Source: Flavivirga spongiicola
GTDB lineage: Bacteria > Bacteroidota > Bacteroidia > Flavobacteriales > Flavobacteriaceae
DNA length: 64,000 nt
Direction of reading: 5' to 3'
Assembly: GCF_030540825.1 (NCBI RefSeq)
Contig: NZ_JAUOEO010000001.1
Span: 1,833,001-1,897,000 of the forward strand
Part shown: one piece after another, positions 497 through 21,503 of the stretch
Position numbering within the stretch: position 1 is the stretch's first letter
Layout of the letters: every line of letters begins with the position of its first letter
Position numbers and translations under genes: made by a program
Notes under the pieces: generated by a model
Seen by the model: the letters and a program-made list of their open reading frames with translations, nothing else
Told to the model about the DNA's origin: nothing
Database searches by the model: none

Positions 497-596
497 TATT
501 GTAAACTAAATATATAAAAAAGAGTTTAACACAACTATTAATTACATTTTTATGGTATTGTATTACTCATATAAATAAAAGGTTATTAAATGTTTG

Positions 597-732
597 TCAA
601 CGTGTTTCCTTAAGGTTTGTTGCGTGTTTTAAGCACCTAATTTAGCAAATACAACCGAATAGAAAATCCGAGCGGGGTTTCGTAAATAGGCTAGGGTTAG
701 CAATAAATTAATAGGATACGGTGTTGGCAACT
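597..732 (-). repeat. Cassette-boundary palindromic site without the conserved insert
   Basis: On the minus strand this begins GCCAACACCG and ends with an ACGTTGACA core. It shares the CTAGCCTATTTACGAAA, GATTTTCTATTCGG and TTTGCTAAATTAGG blocks with the solitary site at 55310-55437, so the two are copies of one site family. The arms are imperfect inverted repeats. It marks the downstream end of the array, just before the GAF gene. Confidence 0.7.
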
Positions 733-734
733 GG

Positions 735-874
735 CGAGTAATCTCAATAGAATTGCGTTTATTTTTTATATATGAATCAAATATAAAAAATATCTTTCGA
801 GATTGAATACTGTTCTATTTTGCCCAATATTTTCCCTGTTCGGTTTTATAGCACTCGTTACAAACGAGCGCTAG
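735..874 (+). repeat. Conserved 140-bp array repeat, copy 1
   Basis: Starts GAGTAATCTCAATAGAATTG, contains the core ATCTTTCGAGATTGAATAC at 792, and ends with the stem-loop CACTCGTTACAAACGAGCG followed by CTAG. The minus strand carries TTATATTTG (Bacteroidota -7 box TANNTTTG). It sits directly beside the palindromic site at 597-732. Eight further copies occur in the same orientation across the next 20 kb. Confidence 0.85.
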
Positions 875-898
875 GTGGCGAAACAGCTTTTCCTCCGT

Positions 899-1393
899 TT
901 AGTTTGGGGAATTTAAACCAAGTTTATTTCCTTCCGTATCTAAAAACAAAGCAAAAAACCCACTTTCATCTGCGTGAGCCGTTTTTGGAACAATGATTTT
1001 TCCTCCATTTTTTTCGACCTTATCTAGAATGGTTTGAAGATTGTCTCCACCATTAAGATAAATGGTTACTCCATCAGCCGAAGGTTTGTACCCTTCGCCT
1101 TTCATTATAACTCCTGTAACCATTTGTCCTTCGTACGGAAATATTCCCATTTCCATTCCTGGCATTTCCATTTTTTCAATGTTAATGTCCAAAATTACTT
1201 GATAAAAACTGACTGCTCGTGAAATATCCGTTGCTGGAATTTCAAAAAGGGAAATAAAACTTTTCATATCATTAGGTATTTGCTCTCGACTAGAATCTAC
1301 TTTTTGCACTTCTGAATTAGATTTATTTTGATTATCACAAGCCATAAGGCTAAAAGCAAGTATTACAGTAGCACTTAGTAAAACTCTTTTCAT
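899..1393 (-). CDS. VOC (glyoxalase/bleomycin-resistance fold) lipoprotein
   Basis: 164 residues. A lipoprotein signal peptide ends in SLMAC (Cys19), so the product is probably membrane anchored. Residues 45-162 form a VOC domain: FEIPATDISRAVSFYQVIL at the first beta-alpha unit and GFFALFLDTEGNKLGL near the C-terminus. VOC proteins bind small molecules or act as metal-dependent enzymes; the substrate is not deducible. It follows an AraC-type regulator with 74 bp between and no cassette site, so both form one unit. A second AraC-VOC unit lies at 5.9-7.3 kb. Confidence 0.8.
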   Translation of the reverse strand: MKRVLLSATVILAFSLMACDNQNKSNSEVQKVDSSREQIPNDMKSFISLFEIPATDISRAVSFYQVILDINIEKMEMPGMEMGIFPYEGQMVTGVIMKGEGYKPSADGVTIYLNGGDNLQTILDKVEKNGGKIIVPKTAHADESGFFALFLDTEGNKLGLNSPN

Positions 1394-1444
1394 TTTTTCT
1401 GTTTAAATTAATGATACGAAATTAGATTATTTGGGAAGGTTAAA

Positions 1445-1462
1445 ATTGTAAAAATGCGACAC
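1445..1462 (-). promoter_or_regulatory. Shared spacer motif ATTGTAAAAATGCGACA between AraC and VOC genes
   Basis: A nearly identical motif (ATTGTAAAAATCGGACA) occurs at 6427-6444 in the same place of the second AraC-VOC unit, although the surrounding sequences differ. It may be an operator for the adjacent regulators; this is inference from conservation of two copies only. Confidence 0.4.
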
Positions 1463-1467
1463 TCAAT

Positions 1468-2283
1468 CTATTTGTAGAAAAGGGTAGAAAGGGTCATATT
1501 TTCATTTTCTAAAAACTCTTTTGGGTTCGTTCCCGTGAACTCCTTAAAGTCTTTAATAAAGTGTGCTTGGTCGTAATATTCACTTTCGTAAGCGATATTA
1601 GTTAGGCTTTCTGCTTCTTTGTTAAGCAACATTTTTAATGCGGTTTGTAGTCGAATTAATTTACCTAATTGTTTTGGGCTCACTCCAATTTGTTTTGCAA
1701 ACTTTCTCTCAAGTTGTCTTCTTTTGGTCAAGTCATCTTTAAGAATCGTTTTTATCGGTGCGTTTCCGTTTGTTGATAAAAGTACGTTAACGGTTGTTTT
1801 TACAATATTCTCGACGGTTGATTTGTCGTTTAACCTTTCTAAGAGAAATTTTTCTATGATCTCTATTCTTTGTTTAACGTCTTTCGCTAGGATTATTTTT
1901 TGTTCTAGTTCCTTGGCGATTTTTTCCTCAAACAATAATTCTAATGGTGTTTCTTTATTAGCTAAGTTTTTAATTGGTTCAGCTACAAAATTGGCAAATC
2001 CGTATGGGTAAAATCGGATTGCGAATGTATTCACGTATCCTGTTGGTTCGATATAAAATGGCTCAATGGTTTGTCCAAGCACCATTGCACGAGGTTGTAG
2101 GATAAATTCATCTTCTGAAGTATATCGCTTTATATCGTCCCCAAGAATAAAAGCCATTTCAATACAACCGTCGGGAACAATCCGTTGTTTTTTCGAATCA
2201 TTATCAGCAGGAACTTCTAAAGTCCAATAACAGTTAATAAGCGATTCTAAATCTGGATGAGGCTGAAATGTCTGATAATTCAT
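1468..2283 (-). CDS. AraC family transcriptional regulator (DUF6597-type N-terminus)
   Basis: 271 residues. The N-terminal half begins FQPHPDLESLINCYWTLEVP, typical of the DUF6597 sensor region of AraC proteins, and contains VPDGCIEMAFILGD. Residues about 185-262 hold two helix-turn-helix motifs (RRQLERKFAKQIGVSPKQLG; IAYESEYYDQAHFIKDFKEF) with the NPKEF ending. It probably controls the VOC gene 74 bp downstream. The unit begins right after the palindromic site at 2310-2440. Confidence 0.88.
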   Translation of the reverse strand: MNYQTFQPHPDLESLINCYWTLEVPADNDSKKQRIVPDGCIEMAFILGDDIKRYTSEDEFILQPRAMVLGQTIEPFYIEPTGYVNTFAIRFYPYGFANFVAEPIKNLANKETPLELLFEEKIAKELEQKIILAKDVKQRIEIIEKFLLERLNDKSTVENIVKTTVNVLLSTNGNAPIKTILKDDLTKRRQLERKFAKQIGVSPKQLGKLIRLQTALKMLLNKEAESLTNIAYESEYYDQAHFIKDFKEFTGTNPKEFLENENMTLSTLFYK

Positions 2284-2309
2284 TAACAGTTCGTTTTTTT
2301 CTTAGTGAC

Positions 2310-2440
2310 GCACAACGGTCTATAACCGTCAGTTACGGGTTTTAAGTTACTATTTTTCGGTTAAGCGTTGCTTTTAGAATTCCGAATGGATTCTGATGTA
2401 GTCGAATCCGTCGTAATTCCGGTTATATATTGTTGGCAAC
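2310..2440 (-). repeat. Cassette-boundary palindromic site
   Basis: Plus strand starts GCACAACGGTCTATAACCG and ends CGGTTATATATTGTTGGCAAC; the arms pair over TATAACCG and TTACG with an additional central inverted repeat (GAATTCCGAATGGATTC region). Ends GCCAAC and GTTGTGC resemble integron attC R cores. This copy lacks the 140-bp conserved insert. Confidence 0.7.
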
Positions 2441-2445
2441 TGGCA

Positions 2446-3435
2446 TTATTCCATTATTTCTGTTAATTTTTGTTTCAACTTTTCTCCTCTTAAATCTCTT
2501 CCAATTATTGTTCCGTTTTCGGCAATTAGAAAATTGTCAGGAATTCCATTAATTCCATAAATTAATGAAGCTTCGTTTGCTTGTCCTTTTAAATCACTTA
2601 CATGGAGCCAATTTAAACTGTCTTTTTCGATAGCACTAATCCAACTTTTCTTATCCTCGTCCAAAGAAACTGCAATTATTTCAAATCCTTTGGGTTTGAA
2701 TTTCTCATAAGTTTTTACAAGATTCGGGTTTTCCTTTCGACAAGGACCACACCACGAAGACCAAAATTCAAGAAGAACGGTTTTTCCTTTAATGTCAGAC
2801 AGTTTTATAGAATTGCCATTGGGGTCTGCCATTTCAAAATCAGCAAATTGTTCTCCAATTTTTGGATCTTTATTTAGCTCAATATACCTTGCGATTTTTT
2901 GACCATAGTTTGATTCTCTAATTTCTTTTGGAAAACGATTGAATAGATTGGTGGTTTTTTCTTTTCCCCAAGTTGTCGAATAAACGGAAAGTATTTGTGC
3001 ACTAACTATGCTATTGGGATTGTCCTTTACAAAATTCATTTCCATTTTCAAACTTTCTTGTCTAGGAATAGTGTCGGAAATAGGATATAAGGTTTGGCTT
3101 AAATTCTCTGATTCCGAACCTAAAACTTTTGCATTTATAAAACTCGTTTTAGATGCATCGAAAGTCATTGCCGAATTTTCTAGCCACAGAACTCTACGCT
3201 CAAACCAATCAGGTGTTCGTAATGTCCCTATAGTCGGTGTTTTTGATAACTTGGTTTTAAAATAAAAGGTATTATCCTTAACCATACTAGAATCAATAAC
3301 CTCATCAGTCATCAAAAAGAGATAAGTGCCATTTTCTATTCCATTTGTTTTTCCGCTTAATGAGAATTCCGCTGTTTGTTTTTCATTGCAAGAAATGACT
3401 AATAATGCTATTATGCCTAGAATTATTCTTTTCAT
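2446..3435 (-). CDS. TlpA-like thiol-disulfide lipoprotein with DUF4369 N-terminal domain
   Basis: The reading frame opens at 3462, but the ATG at 3435 gives a proper lipoprotein signal (MKRIILGIIALLVISC) and is preferred: 329 residues. An N-terminal DUF4369-like region (AEFSLSGKTNGIENGTYLFL) is followed by an AhpC/TSA-thioredoxin domain with the active site SSWCGPCRKEN near residue 225. Family members reduce disulfides or support cytochrome c maturation and stress tolerance in the envelope. The gene is a one-gene cassette between sites at 2310-2440 and 3455-3598. Confidence 0.88.
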   Translation of the reverse strand: MKRIILGIIALLVISCNEKQTAEFSLSGKTNGIENGTYLFLMTDEVIDSSMVKDNTFYFKTKLSKTPTIGTLRTPDWFERRVLWLENSAMTFDASKTSFINAKVLGSESENLSQTLYPISDTIPRQESLKMEMNFVKDNPNSIVSAQILSVYSTTWGKEKTTNLFNRFPKEIRESNYGQKIARYIELNKDPKIGEQFADFEMADPNGNSIKLSDIKGKTVLLEFWSSWCGPCRKENPNLVKTYEKFKPKGFEIIAVSLDEDKKSWISAIEKDSLNWLHVSDLKGQANEASLIYGINGIPDNFLIAENGTIIGRDLRGEKLKQKLTEIME

Positions 3436-3454
3436 CTGTTGTTTGTCTTTGCTT

Positions 3455-3598
3455 GTTGCCAACTATTATATACACATCTTATTTAGAGGAGTAATCTCAG
3501 TAGAGCTGCGTTTATTTTATATATGAATCAAATATAAAAAATATCTTTCGAGATTGAATACTGTACTATTTTACCTAATAGTTACAAACTAGCACTAG
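3455..3598 (+). repeat. Cassette-boundary site with conserved repeat, copy 2 (internally deleted)
   Basis: Opens GTTGCCAACTATTATATAC next to the TlpA gene, then GAGTAATCTCAGTAGAG, the core at 3542, and a shortened end lacking the TTTTCCTTGTTCGG block found in other copies. AAATATAA (minus-strand TTATATTT box) is kept. The distal palindromic arm is not evident. Confidence 0.75.
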
Positions 3599-3613
3599 GA
3601 GATACCAGCTGAC

Positions 3614-4813
3614 TTATAATTTAATTTCATATTCTTCTAACTTTCTCCATATATCAACAAACTCCTTTATTCCCTCTTTTTTAAGTTCCGTATTAATTAT
3701 CAAAAGTTTTCCGATTTTAGTTTTTGTATTGAAAAACATATGTGTTACTATTCCTGGGTCTCCACCAGTATGGCCCATTTGTCCATGCGAAGACATTCCC
3801 ATAAAAACACCCATATTGTATTCATCGTTATAAATACTTTCATTTCTTTCGATATAATTTGTATCAGTCAACTGAGTCTTAAATAGCTCCATATAACTTT
3901 GTTTACTTAATATTTTACCAGTTCCACTATAACCTCTAATTAATTCAACTAAATACGTTCCTAAATCAGTTGATGAAGTAATTAAACCTCCATCTGGATA
4001 ATTGACCAATTGATAAAATGCGAATTCGGTTTCTTTGTTAAGATATAGTTTAGAGTGTTTTGAAAAGTCTATCTCAGTAAAGGACCAACCAGAATTGGAC
4101 ATTCCCAAAGGTGTAAGAATATGTTCGTTGGTAAATTGGTTAAATGGTTGGTTTGTAGCATTTTCAATTATCAAAGCGGCCAACCCTGAAGCAATGTTTG
4201 AGTATTTAAATATTGCTCCTGGTTTTGTCTTTAAAAAACTATTTTTTTTATACCATTTCCCCTCTTCACTTAGAATACTTTCTAAAAACACATTCAGTTT
4301 CATCATTTCATCTGGTGAACGAAAATTGCTATTTACCTTAGCTCTACCATTATTGCTTTTCATCAAAACATACCCGTTCTTTTCATTTCTTGATTTTACC
4401 TTAATACTTGAAGTATGAGTTGCTAGATGTCGTATTGTAATTTGCTCATTGGGAAAATATGGATTATTTACATTGAAGGGCAAGTGTTTGTTTATAGGGT
4501 CGTCTAAGTTCAGTTTTCCCAGTTCCTGAGCTTTTAGCAATGCTATGCCAATAAAAGTTTTAGAAATGGATGCTATGCTTTGAATTGTATTCTCAGTGTA
4601 TTTTTTGTTTGCCTTAACATCAGCATATCCAAGTCCTTTTTTATATAATATTCCATCCTGGTTTACAATAGCTACTGAGAATCCGTTGATATATCCTCTT
4701 GAACATATTTTCTCAAGTTCTGTAGTCAGTTTTCCTGAGATAGAATCATTTGTTTGACAGTAGACTGAGCTTACAAGAATATTCAAGATTAATATTATAA
4801 TTAAATTCTTCAT
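3614..4813 (-). CDS. Class C beta-lactamase-like serine hydrolase, secreted
   Basis: 399 residues with a cleavable signal peptide (about 1-19). The catalytic SxxK is in SIASISKTFIG (near residue 80), the YxN motif is FKYSNIASG (near 205) and the third box is HTGGDPG (near 350). This is the PF00144 fold of esterases, D-aminopeptidases and penicillin-binding-like enzymes; the substrate cannot be told. Single gene between two copies of the array repeat. Confidence 0.88.
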   Translation of the reverse strand: MKNLIIILILNILVSSVYCQTNDSISGKLTTELEKICSRGYINGFSVAIVNQDGILYKKGLGYADVKANKKYTENTIQSIASISKTFIGIALLKAQELGKLNLDDPINKHLPFNVNNPYFPNEQITIRHLATHTSSIKVKSRNEKNGYVLMKSNNGRAKVNSNFRSPDEMMKLNVFLESILSEEGKWYKKNSFLKTKPGAIFKYSNIASGLAALIIENATNQPFNQFTNEHILTPLGMSNSGWSFTEIDFSKHSKLYLNKETEFAFYQLVNYPDGGLITSSTDLGTYLVELIRGYSGTGKILSKQSYMELFKTQLTDTNYIERNESIYNDEYNMGVFMGMSSHGQMGHTGGDPGIVTHMFFNTKTKIGKLLIINTELKKEGIKEFVDIWRKLEEYEIKL

Positions 4814-4836
4814 TTACACTGTGGGTTTTGCTTGCT

Positions 4837-5037
4837 GCTAACTTTTGAATAAACACCATGTTGCGTTTATTTTTTACACACGAATCAAATATAAGAAATA
4901 TCTTTCGAGATTGAATACTGTATTATTTTGCCCAATATTTTCCTTGTTCGGTTTTATAACACTCGTTACAAACGAGCGCTAGCAGGGGAATAGCGACTTG
5001 AGTTAAATTCTAAGTCGCTATTACTTATATACGTTGC
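4837..5037 (+). repeat. Cassette-boundary site with conserved repeat, copy 3
   Basis: From GCTAAC at 4837 through AATAAACACCATGTTGCG, core at 4900, stem-loop CTCGTTACAAACGAG, and then a strong hairpin (AATAGCGACTTGAG pairing with CTAAGTCGCTATT) ending ACTTATATACGTTGC. It shows the composite build: the conserved segment on the side of the next gene start and a variable palindromic arm on the side of the previous gene stop. Confidence 0.8.
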
Positions 5038-5051
5038 AAAACATTTTTTAT

Positions 5052-5399
5052 TCAATTCTTCTTTCTAAATACTTTTCCAATTAATTCAATTAGAGAGTAT
5101 TTACTTTTTATATTCTGATTCTTTTTAGTTTGCCCATTTTTAGAATAAACAAGTATATTATCATCTCCGTTATTCGAGCCAAATCTGCCAGCGTCAAAGT
5201 CCAAATGAATCGCTCCACATTCACAATTCCAATAATCATTATGTGATGCTATCATTTCACTTCCACATTCTACACATTTGTATATTATATTTTCACTTCT
5301 ACTCCAACCAAGTCCATTTCCTGAAGCCTTTGGACCTCTTCCAAGGAATTTCATTCCTTTAATTTCTAAATCAAACTTCGGTTGGATTAATTTACTCAT
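5052..5399 (-). CDS. Small protein with zinc-ribbon-like cysteines
   Basis: 115 residues, not recognised as a named family. Four cysteines are arranged CVEC (about residue 45) and CEC (about 62) around SEMIASHNDYWN, suggesting a small zinc ribbon. The rest is charged and soluble, with no signal peptide. It is the second gene of a pair, 44 bp after the 86-residue gene, in a unit that starts at the TATGCGTACC palindrome. Confidence 0.6.
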   Translation of the reverse strand: MSKLIQPKFDLEIKGMKFLGRGPKASGNGLGWSRSENIIYKCVECGSEMIASHNDYWNCECGAIHLDFDAGRFGSNNGDDNILVYSKNGQTKKNQNIKSKYSLIELIGKVFRKKN

Positions 5400-5443
5400 A
5401 TTTTAATTTTTCCTAATGTTTTGAAATTTTTGTGATAATTATT

Positions 5444-5704
5444 TTATGCAAGATGTTTTATCTTTTCTTTGAAGTGAATTTTGTCATCGGTTGATTTTGC
5501 TTGAAGCCAATATAATGGCTTTTTAGAGAATGAAAAGTCAGGATGATTTATTACTTCATCATAATTCATAACGGTCAAATCCTTTTTCTTTAAAATAACT
5601 TCTATAAATTCATTTGGGTCTAGAAAAAAATCTGCATTCAGACTATAAGTTACAGTTTCCTTGTCCTCTTTTATTTTAATTGCTTTGTAATGGAAAGCTG
5701 TCAT
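5444..5704 (-). CDS. Hypothetical small soluble protein
   Basis: 86 residues, unknown. Predominantly beta-rich and charged (MTAFHYKAIKIKEDKETV start), no signal peptide or membrane segment. Its ATG lies 21 bp after the GGTTGTAAAAC end of the palindrome at 5725-5760, which is the position of a first cassette gene. Co-transcription with the zinc-ribbon-like gene is likely. Confidence 0.6.
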   Translation of the reverse strand: MTAFHYKAIKIKEDKETVTYSLNADFFLDPNEFIEVILKKKDLTVMNYDEVINHPDFSFSKKPLYWLQAKSTDDKIHFKEKIKHLA

Positions 5705-5724
5705 TGCTCAAATGTTTTACAACC

Positions 5725-5760
5725 AATGGATATATGCGTACCGGTACGCATATATCCATT
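5725..5760. repeat. Perfect 36-bp palindrome, possible attI-like or recombinase site
   Basis: A perfect inverted repeat centred on TATGCGTACCGGTACGCATA, extended by ATCCATT arms. On the minus strand it lies between the remnant recombinase end (5773-5815) and GGTTGTAAAAC just before the next gene. A diverged copy is at 14918-14939 in exactly the same context. Confidence 0.8.
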
Positions 5761-5772
5761 TTATTGGGACTA

Positions 5773-5815
5773 CTAATCTAGTTGATTTTTAATTATTTTG
5801 AAAGTGTTTATTGCA
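5773..5815 (-). pseudogene. Short remnant of tyrosine recombinase 3' end, copy 2
   Basis: Minus strand reads F-Q-N then, after one extra base, I-K-N-Q-L-D-stop. The same nine residues, with the same extra base, end the longer remnant at 14959-15098. NIKxPLD is the usual last motif of flavobacterial XerC/IntI-like recombinases. Upstream sequence to 5880 is further decayed. A hairpin CTAGGAAAACCTAG follows at 5907-5920. Confidence 0.5.
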
Positions 5816-5928
5816 ACATAATTAAATGTAAGGAACCTAGAAAAGTTTCTACATATCTGTAAAAGCTTTTTATTTTTTTACTCTTCCCTGCCGACTCGGA
5901 GCGCCACTAGGAAAACCTAGCGGGGGCT

Positions 5929-6378
5929 TTATTCTTCGGGTTTTGTATAAGTCACTATGTCAATTCCAATTCCATTTGGGTCTTTGATTGCAAAATGTCT
6001 GTCTCCCCAAGGTTCGTCTCGGATTTCAATTTCGATTGGAATACCTTTGTCTTTTAGCTGTTTGTAAACTTCATCTACGTTCTCAACTTCAATAGTTAAA
6101 TAAACACCTTTTCCATTAAATGCTGACTTAAAAATAGGTTTTTGGCTTGGATGGTTCGGTTGCAGAAAACTGATTTCAGCCGAATTGTGAGGTGTGTGAA
6201 GTAATAGATAAAATTCGTTTTCAAAACTTACTCCAAAATCCAGAACTTCCCCATAGAATTTCTTGGTTTCCTGTAATTTTTCTGTAATTATTCCTGCGTT
6301 AAGTTTCATTTTGTTTATTGTTTGTGCATTAGTCCAACCTACTGTTAGAACAAATGCGGTTAATAATAATGCTTTCAT
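5929..6378 (-). CDS. VOC-family protein with signal peptide
   Basis: The frame is open from 6444, but ATG at 6378 gives a signal peptide (MKALLLTAFVLTVGWTNAQ) and is chosen: 149 residues. One VOC domain spans residues 25-145 (AGIITEKLQETKKFYGEVLD; WGDRHFAIKDPNGIGIDIV). Likely secreted or periplasmic; ligand unknown. It follows an AraC regulator, mirroring the unit at 0.9-2.3 kb, but the two VOC proteins are only distantly alike. Confidence 0.82.
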   Translation of the reverse strand: MKALLLTAFVLTVGWTNAQTINKMKLNAGIITEKLQETKKFYGEVLDFGVSFENEFYLLLHTPHNSAEISFLQPNHPSQKPIFKSAFNGKGVYLTIEVENVDEVYKQLKDKGIPIEIEIRDEPWGDRHFAIKDPNGIGIDIVTYTKPEE

Positions 6379-6426
6379 TGTGAATGTATTTGTTGCTACA
6401 AATTTAAATTGACAATAAACCGAGGC

Positions 6427-6444
6427 ATTGTAAAAATCGGACAA
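6427..6444 (-). promoter_or_regulatory. Shared spacer motif ATTGTAAAAATCGGACA, second copy
   Basis: Located between the AraC stop and the VOC start, matching the motif at 1445-1462 in all but two or three positions. Candidate operator; inferred only from this pairwise conservation. Confidence 0.4.
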
Positions 6445-6446
6445 AC

Positions 6447-7259
6447 TTAATGGAAGGCCTCTGAAGGTGTTATCCCGTAATATGTTTTGAAATTTTTAAT
6501 GAAGTGAGCTTGGTCAAAAAATCCAACATCAAAGTACAGTTTGTTTTCTTTTAGACTTTGTTTTGAAGGTTTTGCATTTAAAATATGCTGAAAACGTACA
6601 ACATTACTAAACGATTTTGTTGTTGTGCCGATATAAAAGTTGAAAATTCTGCGAAGTTGTCTTGGGCTTAATCCTGTATTAATATCTTTTTCAATATCCA
6701 AATATCCGTTTTTTTGGAATATCAGATTTAGAGCATCTAAAAAACGGTGGTCGTGACGAATATTTTGATTTTTTGAAAACCCGATTATTTTCTCGTTCAG
6801 AGTTTTTGTAATTGTATTAAATGAATCCGAAGGTTTGATTACTGAATTAATCCACTCGGAAAAGTTGGGTAAAATTTTGTTTAGTTCTTGAGATTGATTA
6901 CTCAAAGTTTTGGCATCTACATTGAACAAGATTGGAAACGCAGAAGGCAAAAACCGAATTCCGATATAGTCAAATTCTTTTCCAAGCGGGAATTGAGTGT
7001 ACTTTCTGAAAAATCCCATTACAAAGTTCTCATTCGGTTGTTTATGGTCAAAAAATATATCGATACAGCCATCAGATACCACTCGGTAATTGTAATCTTG
7101 GTTTAAAGGTTGTTGTGTTTTAAGTTGCCAAAAGCAGTAAATATAGTTTTCAATTTCTTTATTTGGTAGGGTTTCTTGATAGCTTATTTCGTTATCGTTA
7201 GCCGAAACTGCTGGTTGAATTGGTTTGTAATATTCTCTTATGATTTTCAGTTCATCCAC
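6447..7259 (-). CDS. AraC family transcriptional regulator
   Basis: 270 residues. The N-terminal sensor half contains NKEIENYIYCFWQLKTQQP and VVSDGCIDIFFD, the same fold as in the regulator at 1468-2283. The C-terminal HTH_18 region includes GLSPRQLRRIFNFYIGTTTK and VGFFDQAHFIKNFKTYYGIT. Presumably regulates the VOC gene 68 bp downstream. The start lies 20 bp from the GCACAAC core of the next site. Confidence 0.87.
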   Translation of the reverse strand: MDELKIIREYYKPIQPAVSANDNEISYQETLPNKEIENYIYCFWQLKTQQPLNQDYNYRVVSDGCIDIFFDHKQPNENFVMGFFRKYTQFPLGKEFDYIGIRFLPSAFPILFNVDAKTLSNQSQELNKILPNFSEWINSVIKPSDSFNTITKTLNEKIIGFSKNQNIRHDHRFLDALNLIFQKNGYLDIEKDINTGLSPRQLRRIFNFYIGTTTKSFSNVVRFQHILNAKPSKQSLKENKLYFDVGFFDQAHFIKNFKTYYGITPSEAFH

Positions 7260-7278
7260 TGCAATTTTTTCGCATTAT

Positions 7279-14448: not shown

Positions 14449-14520
14449 GTTACAACGTTTATATAGTAAGATTAGTTACGTGCTTAAACCCACTAGGAAA
14501 TCCTAACGGTAGCTGGGGGT
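14449..14520 (-). repeat. Degenerate boundary with CTAGG-type hairpin
   Basis: GTTACAACG core next to the gene start, then CCCACTAGGAAATCCTAACGG and GCTGGGGGTTTTT. A related CACTAGGAAAACCTAGCGGG hairpin is at 5904-5924. Both lie just after a cassette gene stop on the minus strand and could act as terminators or as the arm of a boundary site. Confidence 0.45.
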
Positions 14521-14522
14521 TT

Positions 14523-14894
14523 TTATTTGTTTTCATACCAATATTTTCTTTTCTCGTATTTGTCAAATTCCTCGTTGTTCATATTCAACAATATTTTTGA
14601 AAAATTCCGATATTCATTGGGTTCAGCTTTTTCGAGAAATTCCGTAATTAAAAAGTAAACAAAATCGTGTTTTAAATCCTCTAATTTTAATTTCAAGTAT
14701 CGTTTCCTTGATTTCGGATATTGTTTCCAAAATCGTTTGTAGTCAGCGTAAACTTTCTCCGTTACTTTTCCATTTATTTCAGTCAGCAATTTATTCGGAA
14801 TTCTGTTCTCACAAATTCCAATATAGTATTCCTCAATTTCTGCGTAGAAATTTTTCTTTGATTCAATACTGTTTTTAGTTTTCCAGAATGTCAT
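14523..14894 (-). CDS. Hypothetical soluble protein
   Basis: 123 residues, helical and highly charged (KRFWKQYPKSRKRYLKLKLE), no signal peptide or membrane segment. No family recognised. It is the first gene after the recombinase remnant and palindrome at 14918-15098, in the same relative position as the gene at 5444-5704. Confidence 0.6.
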   Translation of the reverse strand: MTFWKTKNSIESKKNFYAEIEEYYIGICENRIPNKLLTEINGKVTEKVYADYKRFWKQYPKSRKRYLKLKLEDLKHDFVYFLITEFLEKAEPNEYRNFSKILLNMNNEEFDKYEKRKYWYENK

Positions 14895-14917
14895 TCTTAA
14901 TTGCTTACAACAATTGT

Positions 14918-14939
14918 ATATGCGTACCAGTATGCATAT
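14918..14939. repeat. Palindrome related to 5725-5760
   Basis: TATGCGTACCAGTATGCATA, a one-mismatch palindrome sharing the TATGCGTACC half with the perfect copy. On the minus strand it is followed by ACAATTGTTGTAAGC and the ATG of the next gene. Confidence 0.7.
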
Positions 14940-14958
14940 TTCTTATTTGCTGAGTCCA

Positions 14959-15098
14959 CTAATCTAGTGGGTTTTTAATTATTTTGAAAGCGTTTGCTTC
15001 TACATGAGTATATAATTTCTGTTGTTTTACTAGAACCATGACCTAAAAGTACTTGTATTTGCCTTAAACCTATCTCTACTACCTCTAGTTTTTATAAC
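14959..15098 (-). pseudogene. Decayed C-terminus of a tyrosine recombinase (XerC/IntI-like)
   Basis: Minus strand reads GLRQIQVLLGHGSSKTTE, the conserved box of tyrosine recombinases around the catalytic LGH histidine, followed by I-I-Y-S-C-R-S-K. Small indels disturb what was evidently YTHVS, with the catalytic Tyr codon TAC still visible. It ends FQN, one extra base, then IKNPLD-stop. Upstream codons still suggest HHLL before the box but contain stops. Not functional. The gene ran in the same direction as the cassettes. Confidence 0.8.
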
Positions 15099-15174
15099 TA
15101 GTGGTGGTAAGCGTCTACAAATATCAATGAAAATAATCTAGAAAAGCTTCTGCTTTTCTGTAAGAACTTTTTTA
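15085..15174 (-). repeat. 90-bp repeat upstream of recombinase remnant, copy b
   Basis: CTAGTTTTTATAACTAG, GTGGTAAGCGTCTACAAAT, TCAATGAAAATAATCTAG, hairpin AAAAGCTTCTGCTTTTCT. Near-identical to 13836-13925. It overlaps the start of the recombinase remnant, so it may derive from the same lost gene. Confidence 0.75.
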
Positions 15175-15195
15175 GGACGAGACACAAGCCATGAT

Positions 15196-15245
15196 ATTTA
15201 GTAAAATCGCCATTACTTGTACAAAATGTTATGTGTTCGTGCATT
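15196..15245 (-). repeat. Half of a cassette-boundary site
   Basis: Minus strand CATTTTGTACAAGTAATGGC resembles the arm AAAATGTATAAGTAATAGCC of the site at 19348-19417. No matching opposite arm was found; the recombinase-remnant region follows instead. Confidence 0.4.
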
Positions 15246-15267
15246 CTTCATTTTACCATCGAAGTTT

Positions 15268-16254
15268 TCACCTATCAACAAATTTAATATCATCCAAATA
15301 AATAACACATCCATTTTGATTCCAAGCTCTATCTGTTACCCAACAAAATCCACCAATCATTGAGGTTAAATTATCTTCATTTGTAAAATCAATTCTATAT
15401 TCTTGCCAGTCGTCTGTAAGTACGATTAATCCAGTTGTTCTAGGAGGATTAATACTGTCACTGTATTTCCCAGTAACACCTCCTACCTTGAATTCTGCCT
15501 TCTCTCCACCATTTTCTCCCTTTGCCATGAATACTAAACTTTTTGCACAAGAAAAATCGTATTTAATTGGGTCTGGTTTTATGTTTCCCCAATTACACCC
15601 AACACAGAACCAGTAGATACCTGCTCCTATCCAACCATCGCTTCGACATGATTTATTTGTCATTGCGGAATAGTTGATTTTTATACACTTACTTCCCGAG
15701 AATGGAGATTCACTACATCTTGTATTTAATTCAACATCATTTGTGTTACACATAAATCCATTTGGAACAAAATATTCTTCTACATTTATAACATAAGGAG
15801 ATGGGCAAGGAGGTATTTCAACTGTAATAAAAAAATCTGATGAATGAGCTAAACCATTTTCACCTGTTCCAATTAATGTAAACTTATATTTTCCAGGCTT
15901 AACACTTCTACCAACTTGTATGAGTACCTTACTATCATAATTTGGTAAAGTAGGAGCATCAGGGCTAAAAATGAACTTAATATCTTGTTGTGTCTTCTGT
16001 ACTTCGAGATTTACAGGCTCTTTGTAATCTATTCGAAGAATAGAAGCATTGGTTATAGAAGCAGTGGTTTCACTTTTGCTCCCTTGAAAAATGTTTATTT
16101 CTAATGGTTTAATTCGAACCTCAAAATGAGGTTTGCAAACAGAATAAATTCCATTACCGAAAAATATTGCAATAATTGCGATAATAGTACCAATAATAAA
16201 CCGCCAATCTTTCCAAAATGGATTTTTGTTTATAGTTTTTTTCTTTCGAGCCAT
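15268..16254 (-). CDS. Membrane-anchored protein with carbohydrate-binding-like C-terminal domain
   Basis: 328 residues. Basic N-terminus (MARKKKTINKNPF), one membrane helix (FIIGTIIAIIAIFFGNGIYS), then an Ig-like region (residues 45-150) and a cysteine-rich beta-sandwich (residues 160-327) with GSKCIKINYSA, SLVFMAKGENGGEKAEF, DDWQEYRIDF and CVIYLDDIKFV. The last motifs are typical of CBM11/galactose-binding-like jelly-rolls. Function unknown; probably binds a surface or extracellular ligand. Confidence 0.7.
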   Translation of the reverse strand: MARKKKTINKNPFWKDWRFIIGTIIAIIAIFFGNGIYSVCKPHFEVRIKPLEINIFQGSKSETTASITNASILRIDYKEPVNLEVQKTQQDIKFIFSPDAPTLPNYDSKVLIQVGRSVKPGKYKFTLIGTGENGLAHSSDFFITVEIPPCPSPYVINVEEYFVPNGFMCNTNDVELNTRCSESPFSGSKCIKINYSAMTNKSCRSDGWIGAGIYWFCVGCNWGNIKPDPIKYDFSCAKSLVFMAKGENGGEKAEFKVGGVTGKYSDSINPPRTTGLIVLTDDWQEYRIDFTNEDNLTSMIGGFCWVTDRAWNQNGCVIYLDDIKFVDR

Positions 16255-16322
16255 GATTAATATTTTAATTAATTATAGTTCTTTTAAATTAGTTGAAATC
16301 TTTCAATAGCACTCTGAATGAC

Positions 16323-16554
16323 GCATAACTATTGATTTGTTTATTCCCCTAATTCGGACGAGTATACGCAATAGGATTGCGTTTATTTTTTATATATGAA
16401 TCAAATATAAGAAATATCTTTCGAGATTAAATACTGTACTATTTTACCCAATATTCTCCTTGTTCGGTTTTATAGCACTCGTTACAAACGAGCGCTAGCG
16501 GGGGTTTTCAGAAGTAGGCGAGAACGAGCAATTACTTATAGTCATTATTGTAAC
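16323..16554 (+). repeat. Cassette-boundary site with conserved repeat, copy 7
   Basis: GCATAACTATTGATTTG, second palindrome, core at 16416, stem-loop CTCGTTACAAACGAG at 16478-16492, then GGGGTTTTCAGAAGTAGGCG and CAATTACTTATAGTC ending ATTGTAACC. The right arm equals that of the simple site at 8325-8457, proving that the conserved segment replaces one half of a simple site. Confidence 0.87.
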
Positions 16555-16575
16555 CAGTTTTTTATTTATTAATGT

Positions 16576-17199
16576 TTATTTTAATTTTATGTCTGCAATT
16601 TTCGTGTATCCATAATAAAGTGTAGCATTTTTTGTGCTTTTTAGCATTGGAAAATACAAGTTTATATTTCTCTTTCTTAAATCTTTAGGCTCAAAATAGG
16701 ATTCATGACATTCCTTATCTGGATTTTTAAAACTTATTTTGTATTCATCATATGCTTCATAGTTTATAGGTATCGTTAAATTAGTAATTCCCTCAAATTC
16801 ATAATCTAAAAATGTATCTTTAATATCTGGTTTATATCTCTTTTCTAAAGATTTATACTTGGGTTTATTCTTAATTAATTGAATAAAATACCATTTATCT
16901 GTCAAATTTGTATATGCCACGCTAAGTGGTCTTAGCCTCATTTTATCTTGGTAATCTATTAGTGAAAATTTATTAGCATCAAAGGGTCTTATCTTATTGT
17001 CAATCATCTCAATTCTGACTTTTACGTTGTATTGAACTATCTCTTTTGATTTTGTCCTAACATTAGTCACAGCACCTATTAATTGACTCGCCTTTTTTGT
17101 TTTTACATATTCAACAGTAAGGTTATCCTCCTGAATCTTAATTTGAGAATAAAATATTTGCGTGGATAGAATTGTTAGTATTATCAATATTGTTTTCAT
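16576..17199 (-). CDS. Secreted hypothetical protein
   Basis: 207 residues with a signal peptide (MKTILIILTILSTQIFYSQ). Beta-rich mature domain (VKVRIEMIDNKIRPFDANKF, LTDKWYFIQLIKNKPKYKSL, ATLYYGYTKIADIKL). A two-cysteine-free, lysine-rich composition; only one Cys (DKECHES). No family recognised. Single-gene cassette. Confidence 0.65.
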   Translation of the reverse strand: MKTILIILTILSTQIFYSQIKIQEDNLTVEYVKTKKASQLIGAVTNVRTKSKEIVQYNVKVRIEMIDNKIRPFDANKFSLIDYQDKMRLRPLSVAYTNLTDKWYFIQLIKNKPKYKSLEKRYKPDIKDTFLDYEFEGITNLTIPINYEAYDEYKISFKNPDKECHESYFEPKDLRKRNINLYFPMLKSTKNATLYYGYTKIADIKLK

Positions 17200-17287
17200 A
17201 TAAGTTCACTTAATAATAAATGTTTTTTCTGAATTTCACTTGTTTCAGGAGCTTAAATATCAATTCGGTTCGTTTTTTTCACATTAA

Positions 17288-17577
17288 CCACAACTATTGA
17301 ATAAACACAATATTGTGTTTATTTTTTATATACATTAACAAATATAAGAGATCTCTTTCGAGATTGAATACTGTACTATTTTGCCCAATATTTTCCTTGC
17401 CTTTTATAACACTCGCTACAAACAAGCGCTAGCCTTTAGATTAGCATAATAAATGTTTTATGATTAAATTTTAACAAAAATATTTGTTTTAACCATAGAA
17501 TACAGGAGACTTGGCAAATACACACAAACCTTCTGGTTAAGCCCTTTTTGTCCTATTTTTTTTATACATTGTTAGGC
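17288..17577 (+). repeat. Cassette-boundary site with conserved repeat, copy 8
   Basis: CCACAACTATTGAATAAACA, one palindrome, core near 17351, CTCGCTACAAACAAGCG, then a long variable arm ending TTTATACATTGTTAGGC. The last seven bases GTTAGGC fit the integron R' consensus GTTRRRY. The stop codon of the next gene lies inside the arm. Confidence 0.85.
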
Positions 17578-19310
17578 ACTGGCATTTCTTTCTCGTTAAG
17601 CAATATTTCTTTCAATTTAGCCTTAATTTTTTCGGTTCGATATTTGTCAAACTCACTTATTTTATTCCACTCTAAATTAAACTCAGGTTTAATATAGTTC
17701 CTTTCTTTATAGGATTTTACTTGTTCTTTATTTGAAGAATAATATTCGTTTAGCCATAATTCAGGGTCTTTAGCCTTTTTTGCGATATTTTCTTCTCCTT
17801 GAAGTAATTGTAGATTATATAAAAAATTTGCTTCGCTAACATAATCTTGGTCTAACTCTACGTTTTTTACTTTAAATTTTGACTTTGGATAAATGTGGTC
17901 AATATGGAATGTAGAATTTTTATAATCTAAATTTGGATATAATATTTGTAAAATTGGAAGTATTGCAGGATTTCCATATTGATAATGAATGAATCCTTCA
18001 ATATCTTCGCTTGATATTTTTAAAGGCTGAACTTTACTTGATGCTAATTTGTTATTAATTTCCTCAAAATTTTCTGAACTTCTTAAAATCTTTGCTACAA
18101 CTTCTAATTTACCATCTAAAGATGTTGTAAAGTAACTCGTTATTTGCGCATTTCTAACAAAGCTTAATAATTGTATTTTATCTTCGTTAGTAATATTATC
18201 TTTTTTGAATAAATAGTATGCTACAATTGATAAAATATAACCTGAAGAAAGTCCATTTGCATAACCAAACTCTTTTAAAAGTTTAATTGCTTTAAAAATT
18301 GTATCTGTTATTTTAACCCAATTTTCTTCTATCTTGTTTATATTACTCTTACTAAAATTTTTGAGCTGAAAAATATGATTACTTTCAGTTAATAATAGAC
18401 AGGTTTTTAAAACTTGGTCACGACCCATAACTTTAAATCCTTTATCTTTTACAGAATCAATAAATTTATTCATTAAATCTCTAATGTCAGTCGAAAAGTT
18501 TGCTGTGAGAATAGACATTAAAAGGTCAGAATATGATAATTGAGTTCCTCCACTATTTACTCTGATAAATATTTTTAAAACTTTGTCAAGGTTTTTTTCT
18601 GTTTCTTCAAAATATGAAATCAGCATATCTTGACAAAAAGCACTTTTTAATTTCAATAATACTTTTGTAGCTGAATTATCTAATTCGTTTTCTGTTTGAT
18701 ATTCAAGAATTTCTTCTATTTTAAAGTTTAAAATATCTCCAACACGGAACCAGTAATTTGATTTGTCAGTCTTTGGAACACTATCTTTTTTTATAAATTC
18801 AAACTTGTAATTATCATCTGGGTTTTCTTCATTCGGAATATATTTTAAATTGAGAAAAAGTTGTTTTTCTTCATAAGCATTTGGATTGTCGACCCAACCA
18901 TAAGGTCTTCTTAATGTTCTAGTGCCTTTTAAACCAATATAAAGAGATGTTAAACGTTGTTGACCATCAAGAACAATTGATAAATCGTTTGAATTGATTT
19001 GTTCAATGTTTACTTTTTCATTATGTGTTTTTCTTTCATCATAATTTTCTATAAACTTATATAATTGAAAATTTAATTTGTCAGAATCCTCCTTTGCATC
19101 CTTGTTAGTTTCAATATCGTCTTTTTTAAGTTTCCAAAAAAGAAATGAACCAATTGGATATCCACGAACAATTGAATCAAAAAGTTGTTCAATTTTCTTT
19201 TCTTTTGCTTTTTTTAGCCAAACAAATTCTCTTTGTATATCTGGTAAAAAATAGCTTTGATTTAATTCTTCTATTACAGTTTGGATTGAAATATCTTTAA
19301 ATTGCCCCAT
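17562..19310 (-). CDS. DUF262/GmrSD-type protein with C-terminal HNH-like motif (possible defence nuclease)
   Basis: 582 residues. The N-terminal DUF262 domain shows PDIQREFVW, IVRGYPIGSFLFWKL and the ParB-like nucleotide-binding DGQQRLTSLY (near 115) and FIRVNSGGTQLSYSDLLMS. The C-terminal part has HIDHIYPKSKF (near 472) and NFLYNLQLLQGEENIAKKAK, the His-Me/HNH catalytic segment of GmrS-D and related enzymes. Such proteins restrict modified phage DNA, usually with NTP use. The last codons NNV-stop fall in the boundary site. Restriction role is by family analogy. Confidence 0.82.
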   Translation of the reverse strand: MGQFKDISIQTVIEELNQSYFLPDIQREFVWLKKAKEKKIEQLFDSIVRGYPIGSFLFWKLKKDDIETNKDAKEDSDKLNFQLYKFIENYDERKTHNEKVNIEQINSNDLSIVLDGQQRLTSLYIGLKGTRTLRRPYGWVDNPNAYEEKQLFLNLKYIPNEENPDDNYKFEFIKKDSVPKTDKSNYWFRVGDILNFKIEEILEYQTENELDNSATKVLLKLKSAFCQDMLISYFEETEKNLDKVLKIFIRVNSGGTQLSYSDLLMSILTANFSTDIRDLMNKFIDSVKDKGFKVMGRDQVLKTCLLLTESNHIFQLKNFSKSNINKIEENWVKITDTIFKAIKLLKEFGYANGLSSGYILSIVAYYLFKKDNITNEDKIQLLSFVRNAQITSYFTTSLDGKLEVVAKILRSSENFEEINNKLASSKVQPLKISSEDIEGFIHYQYGNPAILPILQILYPNLDYKNSTFHIDHIYPKSKFKVKNVELDQDYVSEANFLYNLQLLQGEENIAKKAKDPELWLNEYYSSNKEQVKSYKERNYIKPEFNLEWNKISEFDKYRTEKIKAKLKEILLNEKEMPVPNNV

Positions 19311-19347
19311 ATTTTGTTCAAATGTTTCTTGGTTGGTTTTTGCTTGT

Positions 19348-19417
19348 GCCTAACAGATTATGTATGAGTAGTGGCCTACCGACAGGCGGCTATTACTTAT
19401 ACATTTTGTTGTAGGCC
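19348..19417 (-). repeat. Short attC-like boundary site
   Basis: GCCTAAC (fits R'' RYYYAAC), TTATGTATGAGTAGTGGCC, loop with CTACCGACAGGC, GGCTATTACTTATACA, ending GTTGTAGGCC. Only 70 bp and closest of all to a classical attC. It lies between the DUF262 and OLD-like genes; the C-terminal codons of the latter (TAYNKMYK-stop) are inside it. Confidence 0.75.
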
Positions 19418-20892
19418 GTTTCTATTTTCTTTTTTATCAGTTTATTAAATTTTTCAACTTCGGCCTTATTTTCTAATTTCCAATAGTTAATTAAAGTCCT
19501 ACCATTGACACCCCAATATGGAACTTGCTTTTTCCACCAATCTTTCATTTTTTCTCTATCAGATATTTCTTTTAAATCACGGAAGCATACAGTTTTGGTA
19601 TATCCACCTAGTCCCTTAAAAATAGGATGAGATTCGTCAAGACTTTGAAGGAACCTAAACATTATTTTCTCTGGGCTGTCATTACCTGGCAGAACTATTA
19701 CGTTTGGAGGATTTGGTTTAGACACTTTTGGTTGTTTATCTCCATCAAGAACTATTACACTTTTCTTAAATGCTGGAATCCTTTTATTTGCTAACTGCAA
19801 AAGCTGTTCGGCACCAAAAGTTTCTTTTATTAAATTAATTTTTTTCTTTAAATCGGGAGTTAATAGAGCTCTTAGGAATTGGTCAGCTTCTTTATCCTCA
19901 ATGTAAATATCTATTTTGGTGTCTTTAGTTTTTTCTATTAATACTTCCGCTTTTAAATCCGCTATTATCTCTGCTAAATTTGAGCTTTCAGCCTTTTTAA
20001 CAGGGCCTTCAGCTTTATGAAAATAACATACTTGAGATTGATGTTTGTATTTAGTGGTCAAGAGAATTTCAAGAATTTCAATTGAGTGAGTTGTGAAAAC
20101 AATTTGTAAATCTAGTTTTGAAGAATGTTTAAAAAGGAATTCTATCAATTTTTGTTGTGCCGCAGGAAACATACTGGCATCCAATTCATCTATTAAAAGA
20201 ATCCCGCCATTATAATTATCACCTAGTTGGTTTTTGAGTCTTTGAAAAGATAGAATAGATGTTATTATTTGTCCTATATTATCTTGACCTGCTGAGTTTC
20301 CTATTGCATCATATTTATCCGATTTCGCGGCTAAGAAGTGTTTTGAAGTTGATTTTACTTCTTCAGAACTAATGTTATCATAAAGCAGGAGTATTTCATT
20401 ATGAGCTTTCGTGTAAAAGTCCAATTCTCCCTGTGTTAAACTATGAACTTGAGAATCAACTTTTCTCTCTTGGGCTAAAGGAATTAACCTTTTTAATCCT
20501 AAAAAGATTACTGGAAAATCAATTTTACCACCTTCTTTTGTGCTTTGTCCTACACGAAGTCTTAAAGTTTCTTTTTTGCTTTTCTCTTTTCGAGCATATG
20601 AAGAGACTTGTGTTGAAATACCATTTGTAAAACTGACTTCATATAAATGCTCTTTTGGTTTGTCAAAATCGGGGAATGAGAATTTGAAAATTTCAGAATA
20701 TTCAGTTTCAAAAAGTTTTCCATCAAATGTTCTTGCTTTTGATTTCTCTTTACAAACGTGTCCGAGGAGACCCAGAACCGTAGATTTTCCAGTTCCATTT
20801 TGTCCAGCTATTGCGGTTAGTCTATCACCTAATTTAATCTTAATATCATTTAGGTGTCGAAACTTTGTTATTTGGAGTTCTGATATATTCAC
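19393..20892 (-). CDS. OLD-like AAA ATPase with TOPRIM-type C-terminal domain
   Basis: 499 residues. ABC-type ATPase: ISKFRHLNDIKIKLG-like start, Walker A GQNGTGKST (31-39), signature region before LLIDELDASMFPAAQQKL (Walker B near 225) and the switch FTTHSIEIL (near 265). After residue 325, IYIEDKEADQFL and VIVLDGD are the acidic motifs of a TOPRIM nuclease as in OLD/GajA proteins. Family members act in phage defence or DNA processing. It may be a stand-alone defence gene; no GajB-like helicase is adjacent. Confidence 0.82.
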   Translation of the reverse strand: MNISELQITKFRHLNDIKIKLGDRLTAIAGQNGTGKSTVLGLLGHVCKEKSKARTFDGKLFETEYSEIFKFSFPDFDKPKEHLYEVSFTNGISTQVSSYARKEKSKKETLRLRVGQSTKEGGKIDFPVIFLGLKRLIPLAQERKVDSQVHSLTQGELDFYTKAHNEILLLYDNISSEEVKSTSKHFLAAKSDKYDAIGNSAGQDNIGQIITSILSFQRLKNQLGDNYNGGILLIDELDASMFPAAQQKLIEFLFKHSSKLDLQIVFTTHSIEILEILLTTKYKHQSQVCYFHKAEGPVKKAESSNLAEIIADLKAEVLIEKTKDTKIDIYIEDKEADQFLRALLTPDLKKKINLIKETFGAEQLLQLANKRIPAFKKSVIVLDGDKQPKVSKPNPPNVIVLPGNDSPEKIMFRFLQSLDESHPIFKGLGGYTKTVCFRDLKEISDREKMKDWWKKQVPYWGVNGRTLINYWKLENKAEVEKFNKLIKKKIETAYNKMYK

Positions 20893-20907
20893 ATTTGTTT
20901 TTTTATG

Positions 20908-21064
20908 GCCTACAACTATTGAATAAACGCAATATTGTGTTTATTCCCCCAATATTTCTGGATAAACACAATAAAGTTGCGTTTATTTTTATTATACACA
21001 AACCAAATATAAGAAATATCTTTCATGACTGAGTGCTTTACTATTTTACATAATATTTTTCTTT
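20908..21064 (+). repeat. Conserved array repeat, copy 9 (most diverged, upstream end of array)
   Basis: GCCTACAACTATTGAATAAACG, two palindromes, CAAATATAAG, diverged core ATCTTTCATGACTGAG at 21017, then TTTACTATTTTACATAATATT and loss of the terminal stem-loop. The following 140 bp hold nothing recognised. Confidence 0.78.
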
Positions 21065-21203
21065 TTACTAAGCTCTCAGCTCTTTAAGCTTTACAATGTC
21101 AAACCAATAAAAGTAATGAAGAATATAAAGTAAAATTAGATGTAGTTTTTTATTTATATACAGTTTTGAGAAGTTTAAAGCTTCACATAAACAAACACAT
21201 GAT

Positions 21204-21503
21204 TTATTTACTATTTTTTCTCGCTTCTTTCTGTTTAAGAAATTTTTGAATTTCTTTTGAGCCTATTTTATCAACTTTTTTGAAGAAATCTACAACTGAA
21301 ATATTAAAGTATTTACAGTAGATATGCAGAGTTTCCATTGTAAAGTTACCATCAACTTCATTTCTGCCCATATTATGAGAAAAACCCGTTTTTTCAAGTA
21401 TGTCAGTGTTAACGTCGGCTTGCGAAACATTTTTTTGTCTACGAAGCTCTTTTAATACTAAAATTATAGACGTTTTGAAAAAAAGTAACTGATCATCTTT
21501 CAT
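21204..21503 (-). CDS. XRE-type helix-turn-helix protein
   Basis: 99 residues. A Cro/C1-like domain covers residues 10-75: VLKELRRQKNVSQADVNTDI (first helices), then TMETLHIYCKYFNISVVDFF. Lysine-rich tail (KFLKQKEARKNSK). Target unknown. The start is followed upstream by a 110-bp hairpin (21659-21768), which may lie in its control region. Confidence 0.78.
   Translation of the reverse strand: MKDDQLLFFKTSIILVLKELRRQKNVSQADVNTDILEKTGFSHNMGRNEVDGNFTMETLHIYCKYFNISVVDFFKKVDKIGSKEIQKFLKQKEARKNSK

Follow-up and report, generated by a model that had tools for sequence, protein, structure and literature searches.

A decayed cassette array in Flavivirga probably belongs to an integron class of Bacteroidota whose integrase lacks the I2 insertion

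We analysed a window of 64,000 nucleotides (nt) of the 5.9 Mb genome of Flavivirga spongiicola (G000:C1:1833001-1897000), which contains an array of gene cassettes with attC-like sites between them. Judged from sequence comparisons, this is very likely the decayed array of a class of Bacteroidota integrons whose integrase does not contain the I2 insertion. Across the loci compared we see the anatomy of such a class, cassettes whose start is complementary to their own end, site arms that differ between the two strands, an integrase in which the insertion is absent and one cassette that is common to two genera. I2 is taken as a defining part of integron integrases, and a system without it bears on the origin of integrons. 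Our literature searches did not find a published description of an I2-less integron system.

Passages of PMC9668308 call I2 necessary for integron-mediated recombination and, like passages of PMC8618304, list Bacteroidota among the phyla that carry integrons. According to a section of PMC9024848, IntegronFinder 2.0 identifies the integrase IntI by its extra domain, and one complete Bacteroidetes integron, from Salinibacter, is reported there. In a passage of PMC8138268, Smyshlyaev and colleagues state that conservation of the insertion is incomplete within their integron-like subgroup. Escudero and colleagues, in a passage of PMC4792948, treat I2 and extrahelical bases as products of co-evolution and see a chicken-and-egg paradox in how I2 was acquired.

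Results

A one-strand array of unrelated genes without an intact integrase

The 20 main open reading frames (ORFs), which span 899-20892, are without exception encoded on the minus strand; the ORF list also contains shorter ones that overlap them, on either strand. According to the ORF list and family searches their products are functionally unrelated. They include VOC/AraC pairs, a TlpA-like thioredoxin, a beta-lactamase-family protein, an MFS transporter, an AAT-domain protein, an outer-membrane barrel, a GmrSD_N protein, an AAA ATPase and several proteins without a family. The spacers, examined in the sense of the genes, carry nine copies of an 87-nt repeat family and short attC-like sites. 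An earlier note on this DNA had described about 17 cassettes at 500-21500, of unrelated genes on one strand with sites between them. The layout holds; the number is ~18, each of one or two genes, and the array continues leftward for ~2.4 kb beyond the window edge. The note was also right that two genes end inside sites, since the AAA ATPase gene reads through GCCTACAAC into an attC and the GmrSD_N gene through GCCTAAC. Repeated sites are indeed present, but the size of 70-290 bp that it gave them needs revision: recognisable attC measure ~53-180 nt and the long ones are composite. The following cassettes are referred to below.

19393-20892, minus strand: cassette gene, AAA ATPase (PADLOC HEC-04-like, 82 bits), own ends GTTGTAGGCC..GGCCTACAAC
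17562-19310, minus strand: cassette gene, GmrSD_N protein (PADLOC HEC-05, 797 bits), own ends GTTAGGCAC..GTGCCTAAC
9690-10949, minus strand: cassette gene, MFS transporter, own ends GTTAGCTGTC..GACAGCTAAC
7510-8332, minus strand: cassette for a 260-residue protein, Aquimarina intermedia match with 85% DNA identity from the crossover to the R'' box
2446-3462, minus strand: cassette gene, TlpA-like thioredoxin, own ends GTTGGCAAC..GTTGCCAAC

The degenerate recombinase C-terminus that the note had seen, pointing in the same direction as the cassettes, is there as well, and we found a shorter second one.

14911-15085, minus strand: decayed integrase C-terminus, then an attI palindrome and GTTGTAAG
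5723-5815, minus strand: second decayed integrase 3' end and a 34-nt attI-type palindrome

In line with the claim that a functional integrase is missing, a genome-wide search for an intact integrase of this family found none. Among its seven matches the best two are XerD/XerC-like (names assigned in this analysis), and the rest are other tyrosine recombinases and short remnants; the family's traces in the genome are solely C-terminal. Canonical IntI did not exceed the cut-off anywhere in this genome. The sequence data support an integron-like cassette array without a functional integrase, its remnant lying in the 'inverse' orientation.

The start of a cassette is complementary to its own end

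The site between two genes of an integron array is a hybrid, whose right end belongs to the next cassette. The start of a cassette (GTT plus core) is therefore expected to be complementary to the cassette's own end (core plus AAC), and not to the other half of the same site. For 12 cassettes of the window, 64 of 84 bases match between own start and own end (shuffled mean 31.6, maximum 56; none of 20000 shuffles reaches 64), although these cassettes were chosen by eye for having both ends recognisable and are thus a biased sample. To avoid this bias, 53 consecutive pairs from Flavivirga loci were located with the site model described below; their mean is 4.98 matches out of 6 and 34 pairs are perfect. 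Shuffling gives 2.12, and comparing the halves within single sites gives 2.09 (n=74).

The same relation is found behind intact integrases of other genomes. From 69 loci examined, 50 have a palindrome and a GTT, and 36 of these offer at least 800 bp of downstream sequence. In 25 of the 36 the 9-nt core that follows attI recurs, reverse-complemented, within 5 kb downstream; shuffled cores give a mean of 1.09 (maximum 4 in 300 shuffles), the upstream side 0 and the same strand 2. A more lenient search, which accepted any GTT up to 220 bp from the stop codon, added 14 loci: an own core of at least 9 nt occurs in eight (the match in L245 may be due to chance), none in three, and three have no recognisable ORF. 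These sequences point to the cassette, with R'' complementary to its own R', as the mobile unit.

Intact integrases adjoin an attI and head such arrays

We fetched 79 integrase loci, 74 of which have Bacteroidota titles; the other five (Bacilli, Anaerolineales and a cyanobacterium) encode proteins that are 25-38% identical. Intact relatives of ~375 residues are present in four of eleven congeners and in loci of named records, and in Flavivirga, Arenibacter, Maribacter, Aquimarina, Leeuwenhoekiella and other Bacteroidota they stand at the head of arrays and point the same way as the cassettes. Some bear the automatic name 'integron integrase'. A protein search yielded at least 6232 relatives at E<=1e-60 among 8000 scored, partly outside the closest type, and a profile matched at E<=1e-75 in 71 of 395 genomes of the phylum, with more than 500 bits in four of them. 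Cassette capture may be common in marine Bacteroidota. The B-type integrases are shorter and do not have the N-terminal 105 residues. Some of them (L148, L149 and L248) are among the loci positive for the own core, L148 having 10 sites, so the N-terminal part is not needed. Two single loci are recorded here. In L152 (G006:C29:213001-233000) several integrase C-terminal fragments of ~113 residues, which share 45-48% identity with the query, recur within a single stretch and are perhaps duplicated units of integrase 3' end and attI; and in L196 a transfer-messenger RNA gene (6359-6753) lies ~1.2 kb upstream of the integrase start.

A palindrome of ~20-28 nt, whose sequence varies between loci, commonly follows the integrase stop codon in the relatives. 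A palindrome score of at least 9 within 70 bp of the stop is reached in 39 of 64 loci, compared with 0.9% of shuffles and two of 64 control stretches. Among 32 distinct palindromes, which were selected for palindromicity, the paired bases differ a great deal. After the palindrome come NATT and GTTR, and then the cassettes. In the relatives this arrangement argues for an attI that adjoins the integrase gene. Chaining from 29 integrases gave 93 candidate sites, and the longest chains comprise at least eight cassettes.

A strict site model was trained on 76 sites with an arm score of at least 15 from genera other than Flavivirga, with the core hidden from it except for AAC and GTT. It detects 88 sites downstream of the training integrases in sense and none in antisense. 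In 42 held-out loci the numbers are 66 and 0, with four sites upstream in 299 kb, and 19 of the 23 held-out loci with at least 1.5 kb of downstream sequence have a site.

The integrases do not contain I2

The distance between box I and the HxLRH motif is 94-95 residues in 28 of 31 A-type rows (the other three are not measurable) and 94-99 in six B-type rows. It is 99 in XerC-like (5 rows) and 101 in XerD-like (6 rows) recombinases, and 136 in 10 of 10 canonical IntI; a length filter left L206 out of this comparison. The ~40 residues of I2 are thus absent from all 28 measurable A-type and all six B-type rows and present in all ten IntI. This integrase family does not have the I2 hallmark of canonical IntI.

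The two integrases tested against protein families score 205.7 and 174.8 bits with TIGR02249, both under its cut-off of 265, and 241.4 and 214.9 bits with NF040815 (XerA / integron integrase; cut-off 220), which one of the two passes. A profile of 28 sequences aligns to XerA and XerD in one continuous stretch, but to IntI4 (2a3v) in two blocks, between which the 2a3v chain has ~43 more residues. The predicted structure of the integrase (predicted local distance difference test score (pLDDT) 83.5, predicted template modelling score (pTM) 0.58) matches both XerA and IntI4. In a quick tree, in which long branches were flagged, a branch with support 99 separates the A, B and IntI rows from the XerC- and XerD-like rows.

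attC arms differ between the strands by wobble pairs

Sites of the family, measured in relatives and in the other arrays of this genome, fold as single strands, the bottom strand better than the top. In the two site sets (76 sites and 69 Flavivirga sites) mean z is -3.6 and -3.5 for the bottom strand and -2.7 and -2.9 for the top strand, so that both beat shuffles, and 67 of the 76 sites and 55 of the 69 have the more stable fold on the bottom strand. Over 14 arm positions of the 122 anchorable sites among 145, a bottom-strand G·T (top A·C) occurs in 242 cells and a top-strand G·T in nine, with the wobble mismatches concentrated at arm positions 4 and 9. An aligner-based count gives bottom-to-top ratios of 140:1 and 128:2 in the two sets. 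Bulged bases, in contrast, are balanced between left and right arm (11/14 and 13/10), which is not the extrahelical-base pattern of canonical attC. Arrays of canonical IntI (L256, L261 and L262) have G·T counts of 3:0 in 17 sites and 0:4 in 15 sites on the opposite strand; their bulges number 23 versus 7 and 7 versus 19, strand sense not being assigned there. In this small comparison canonical attC therefore mark the strand by bulges, and the sites described here by wobble pairs. The marking of attC strands by extrahelical bases is published, and the word 'wobble' does not occur in the portion of PMC2727003 that describes it.

Sites, promoter modules and composite sites of the window

The sites of the family cluster at lengths of ~54, 118, 180 and 213-258 nt. 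Those recognised in the window are the following.

19354-19408, minus strand: attC site, 53 nt between cores (site model and own-end test)
12769-12889, minus strand: attC site, 119 nt (looser scan and own-end test)
11005-11182, minus strand: attC site, 176 nt, which resembles stretches of Maribacter and Tenacibaculum loci
8333-8451, minus strand: attC site, 117 nt; ~85% identical stretches in Leeuwenhoekiella, Psychroflexus and Maribacter loci
2316-2432, minus strand: attC site, 115 nt, which resembles stretches of an Arenibacter locus and a metagenome-assembled genome locus
595-874, minus strand: attC-like site (598-735) joined to a promoter module that has no palindrome of its own (putative promoter at 778-785)

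The strict model finds four sites on the sense strand of the array, one with a misplaced right end, and none on the array's other strand, in the rest of the window or in five shuffles. A looser model yields five window sites at a score of at least 14, with 1.1 expected by shuffling, and five matches in ~115 kb of control strands. The attC bodies at 598-735, 2312-2438, 8324-8453 and 11000-11217 are ~74-86% identical between genera and have different cassette cores, as if a few body families were reused across genera.

The repeat family of the spacers (87-140 nt) occurs in nine copies in the array, seven of which start with a short palindrome. The copies contain TATATTTG, which we take to be the Bacteroidetes -7 promoter motif. 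It is found nine times on the sense strand of the array and once on its antisense strand, and once and not at all, respectively, in the remaining ~42 kb of the window. We infer a putative promoter activity of these modules, which would make them candidates for the cassette promoter Pc. Several copies terminate in AATAAACAC..GTGTTTATTCAATA followed by GTTG, and in several the left half of an attC is joined to the module. In the congener G005 the 3' end of the integrase is followed by TATATTTG and by AAATAAACACACTAGTGTGTTTATTCAATT with GTTG. Because an integrase end precedes them there, the long repeat may be read as a promoter-plus-attI module. The long sites, each apparently composed of a half-attC, a promoter-like motif and an attI-like palindrome, correct the earlier view of a family of long sites.

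20916-21064, minus strand: first Pc-attI-like module, at the head of the array, with TATATTTG at 21004-21011, palindrome and crossover at 20916
17294-17427, minus strand: composite site, Pc-attI-like module (Pc 17339-17346)
16329-16493, minus strand: composite site, Pc-attI-like module (Pc 16402-16409) with the left half of an attC at ~16494-16547
13593-13738, minus strand: Pc-attI-like module (Pc 13678-13685)
9466-9605, minus strand: composite site, Pc-attI-like module (Pc 9514-9521)
7285-7460, minus strand: composite site, Pc-attI-like module (Pc 7372-7379)
4842-4977, minus strand: composite site, Pc-attI-like module (Pc 4886-4893)
3463-3593, minus strand: Pc-attI-like module (Pc 3529-3536)

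More copies of the promoter-attI repeat, in longer forms, lie at L041:9300-15400 (G000:C1:1.691-1.697 Mb). L042 also has copies, and near its position 13057 the promoter part is joined to another attI palindrome. In L141, from another Flavivirga species, four attI-type palindromes (positions 4668, 5652, 6965 and 11484) adjoin the same flanking gene.

A second array and signs of cassette movement

The same genome has a better preserved array at C2:643272-665818 (L255, L044 and L254), in which the site model trained on other genera finds 23 sites, all on one strand; the own-end match is perfect in 19 of 22 cassettes. It starts with TATATTTG, the palindrome ATAAAGAACATATGTTCTTTAT and ATT followed by GTTGTAC, and lies behind a gene read here as that of an RsgA-like GTPase (name assigned in this analysis). 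No integrase was seen in the stretch read upstream of it.

Window positions 7510-8332 share 85% DNA identity, across 823 bp, with the cassette that comes first beside the Aquimarina intermedia integrase (L201). The similarity sets in at the predicted crossover (TTGTACAC) and ends at R'' (TGTACAACAA), and the flanks differ. Two congeners have different cassettes behind an integrase at the same chromosomal place. The genes that flank the array, terB and OMP403, lie 283 bp apart in G008 and 12.4 kb apart in G009, with 32 kb between them in the window genome; the fetched stretches of the other nine congeners did not show both flanks, two of them ending at contig ends. Three findings would have spoken against the reading of the earlier note, namely sites that do not fold as single strands, cassette content that is constant between related strains and a gene order kept in distant genera, and none of the three was seen; relatives with an intact recombinase, for which it had proposed to look, do exist. 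For gene order, one of the 20 window cassette proteins has a close match in the fetched loci, that of Aquimarina, in a different context.

Three observations concern the cargo and the surroundings. The adjacent cassettes at 17562-20892 encode the PADLOC candidate defence proteins HEC-05 and HEC-04-like, and cassettes of these arrays can thus carry candidate phage-defence genes. A two-gene unit of VOC and AraC-DUF6597 occurs twice, separately, in the array (899-2283 and 5929-7259). At the array's left end, beyond the window, L040:16454-17446 presumably encodes an IS110-like transposase.

Discussion

In intact members of the proposed class a tyrosine recombinase gene lies just upstream of the cassettes and in their direction. 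The recombinase is predicted to use a palindromic attI within ~60 bp of its stop codon, at which circular cassettes would be inserted by a crossover just before GTT. The attC would be recognised as a folded bottom strand, which implies single-strand recombination, and the choice of strand is probably encoded by G·T wobble pairs rather than by extrahelical bases. In the Flavivirga genome, the integrase has decayed, leaving the two arrays studied and many Pc-attI-like modules. We lean, with caution, towards a working class of Bacteroidota integrons that never had, or does not need, I2 and extrahelical bases, whose strand choice resides in G·T wobble and whose attI palindrome is conserved more in structure than in sequence.

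Several points weigh against this reading. The own 9-nt core was not found in 11 of the 36 loci, a strong palindrome is missing in 25 of 64, and some of the 93 chained sites have low scores. The comparison with canonical arms covers 17 sites from three arrays only, and the wobble bias may be caused by mutation, namely cytosine deamination on the bottom strand. The block shared with Aquimarina intermedia ends at R'', leaving the attC body outside, and the translated match of that integrase (L201:8001-9104) contains one stop codon, so it may be broken. The window array by itself is degenerate: the looser scan yields 5 matches where ~1.1 are expected, and control DNA has matches too.

The rival that fares best holds that integron-like cassettes were moved as double-stranded DNA, in the manner of Xer, and that the symmetry of attC reflects only paired protein binding sites. 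It would suit a palindromic attI and a XerA-like integrase without I2, the element that a passage of PMC7790495 links to single-strand substrates. It does not, however, predict that arm mismatches preserve pairing in the bottom strand and break it in the top strand (140:1), and we regard it as rather unlikely. Much less probable is an ordinary cluster of attC sites lacking integron integrases (CALIN), in which a canonical array has lost a classical IntI with I2 or is served by one in trans. Arrays without an integrase are common according to a passage of PMC9024848, and canonical IntI does occur in 106 of 395 genomes of the phylum; yet of these 106 one belongs to the same class and none to the same order or family, this genome has no IntI over the cut-off, I2-less integrases head the arrays in many genera, and the site model finds no sites in seven of seven canonical IntI loci. 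That the spacers are transcription terminators, or repeats like repetitive extragenic palindromes or miniature inverted-repeat transposable elements, between ordinary genes is barely credible in spite of the nine-copy, 87-140 nt family and the short palindrome that opens seven copies, because a hairpin acting in sense RNA is expected to enrich G·U on the sense strand, contrary to what is seen, and because complementarity of own ends across whole genes, which holds in loci of independent genomes too, is not a property of terminators.

If the I2-less integron class is real, it would either stand as an intermediate form between Xer recombination and the canonical integrons or mean that cassette recombination through folded single strands arose a second time. 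Natural cassettes, attI and attC without I2 or the extrahelical-base pattern would make the question of how I2 was acquired directly testable.

Comparison with known systems

With canonical integrons (class 1 and the Vibrio superintegron) the system shares an integrase that adjoins attI, small cassettes arrayed on one strand, sites of the order R''-L''-L'-R' whose central spacer is unpaired, a crossover before GTT, a more stable bottom hairpin and cassette-specific core pairs. It differs in the absent I2, in arms marked by G·T instead of an excess of bulges in one arm, and in its palindromic attI. In inverse integrons, known from Treponema denticola and others, the integrase points in the direction of the cassettes and is an IntI with the insertion. 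The orientation is shared, and the canonical IntI locus L234 has the same layout, but IntI keeps its insertion there (136 residues measured in L234).

The arrays of this genome resemble CALIN in having no integrase. The C2 array, with 23 sites in a genome without an intact family integrase, has the at least two attC without integrase by which CALIN are defined, although its sites are not canonical attC. What sets the arrays apart is the other attC family and the attI-like modules within or at the head of the arrays. These modules may find a parallel in the delta-attI cassettes of mobile integrons, described in a passage of PMC12901181, in which attI-type sites occur inside cassette arrays. The difference is that here nine promoter-bearing modules lie in one array, most of them joined to a half attC, and that they are not class 1 cassettes. 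Archaeal XerA and bacterial XerC-XerD are the closest solved sequences and folds, but in the tree the integrase described here falls on the same side as IntI (support 99, long branches), and it adjoins an attI and cassettes.

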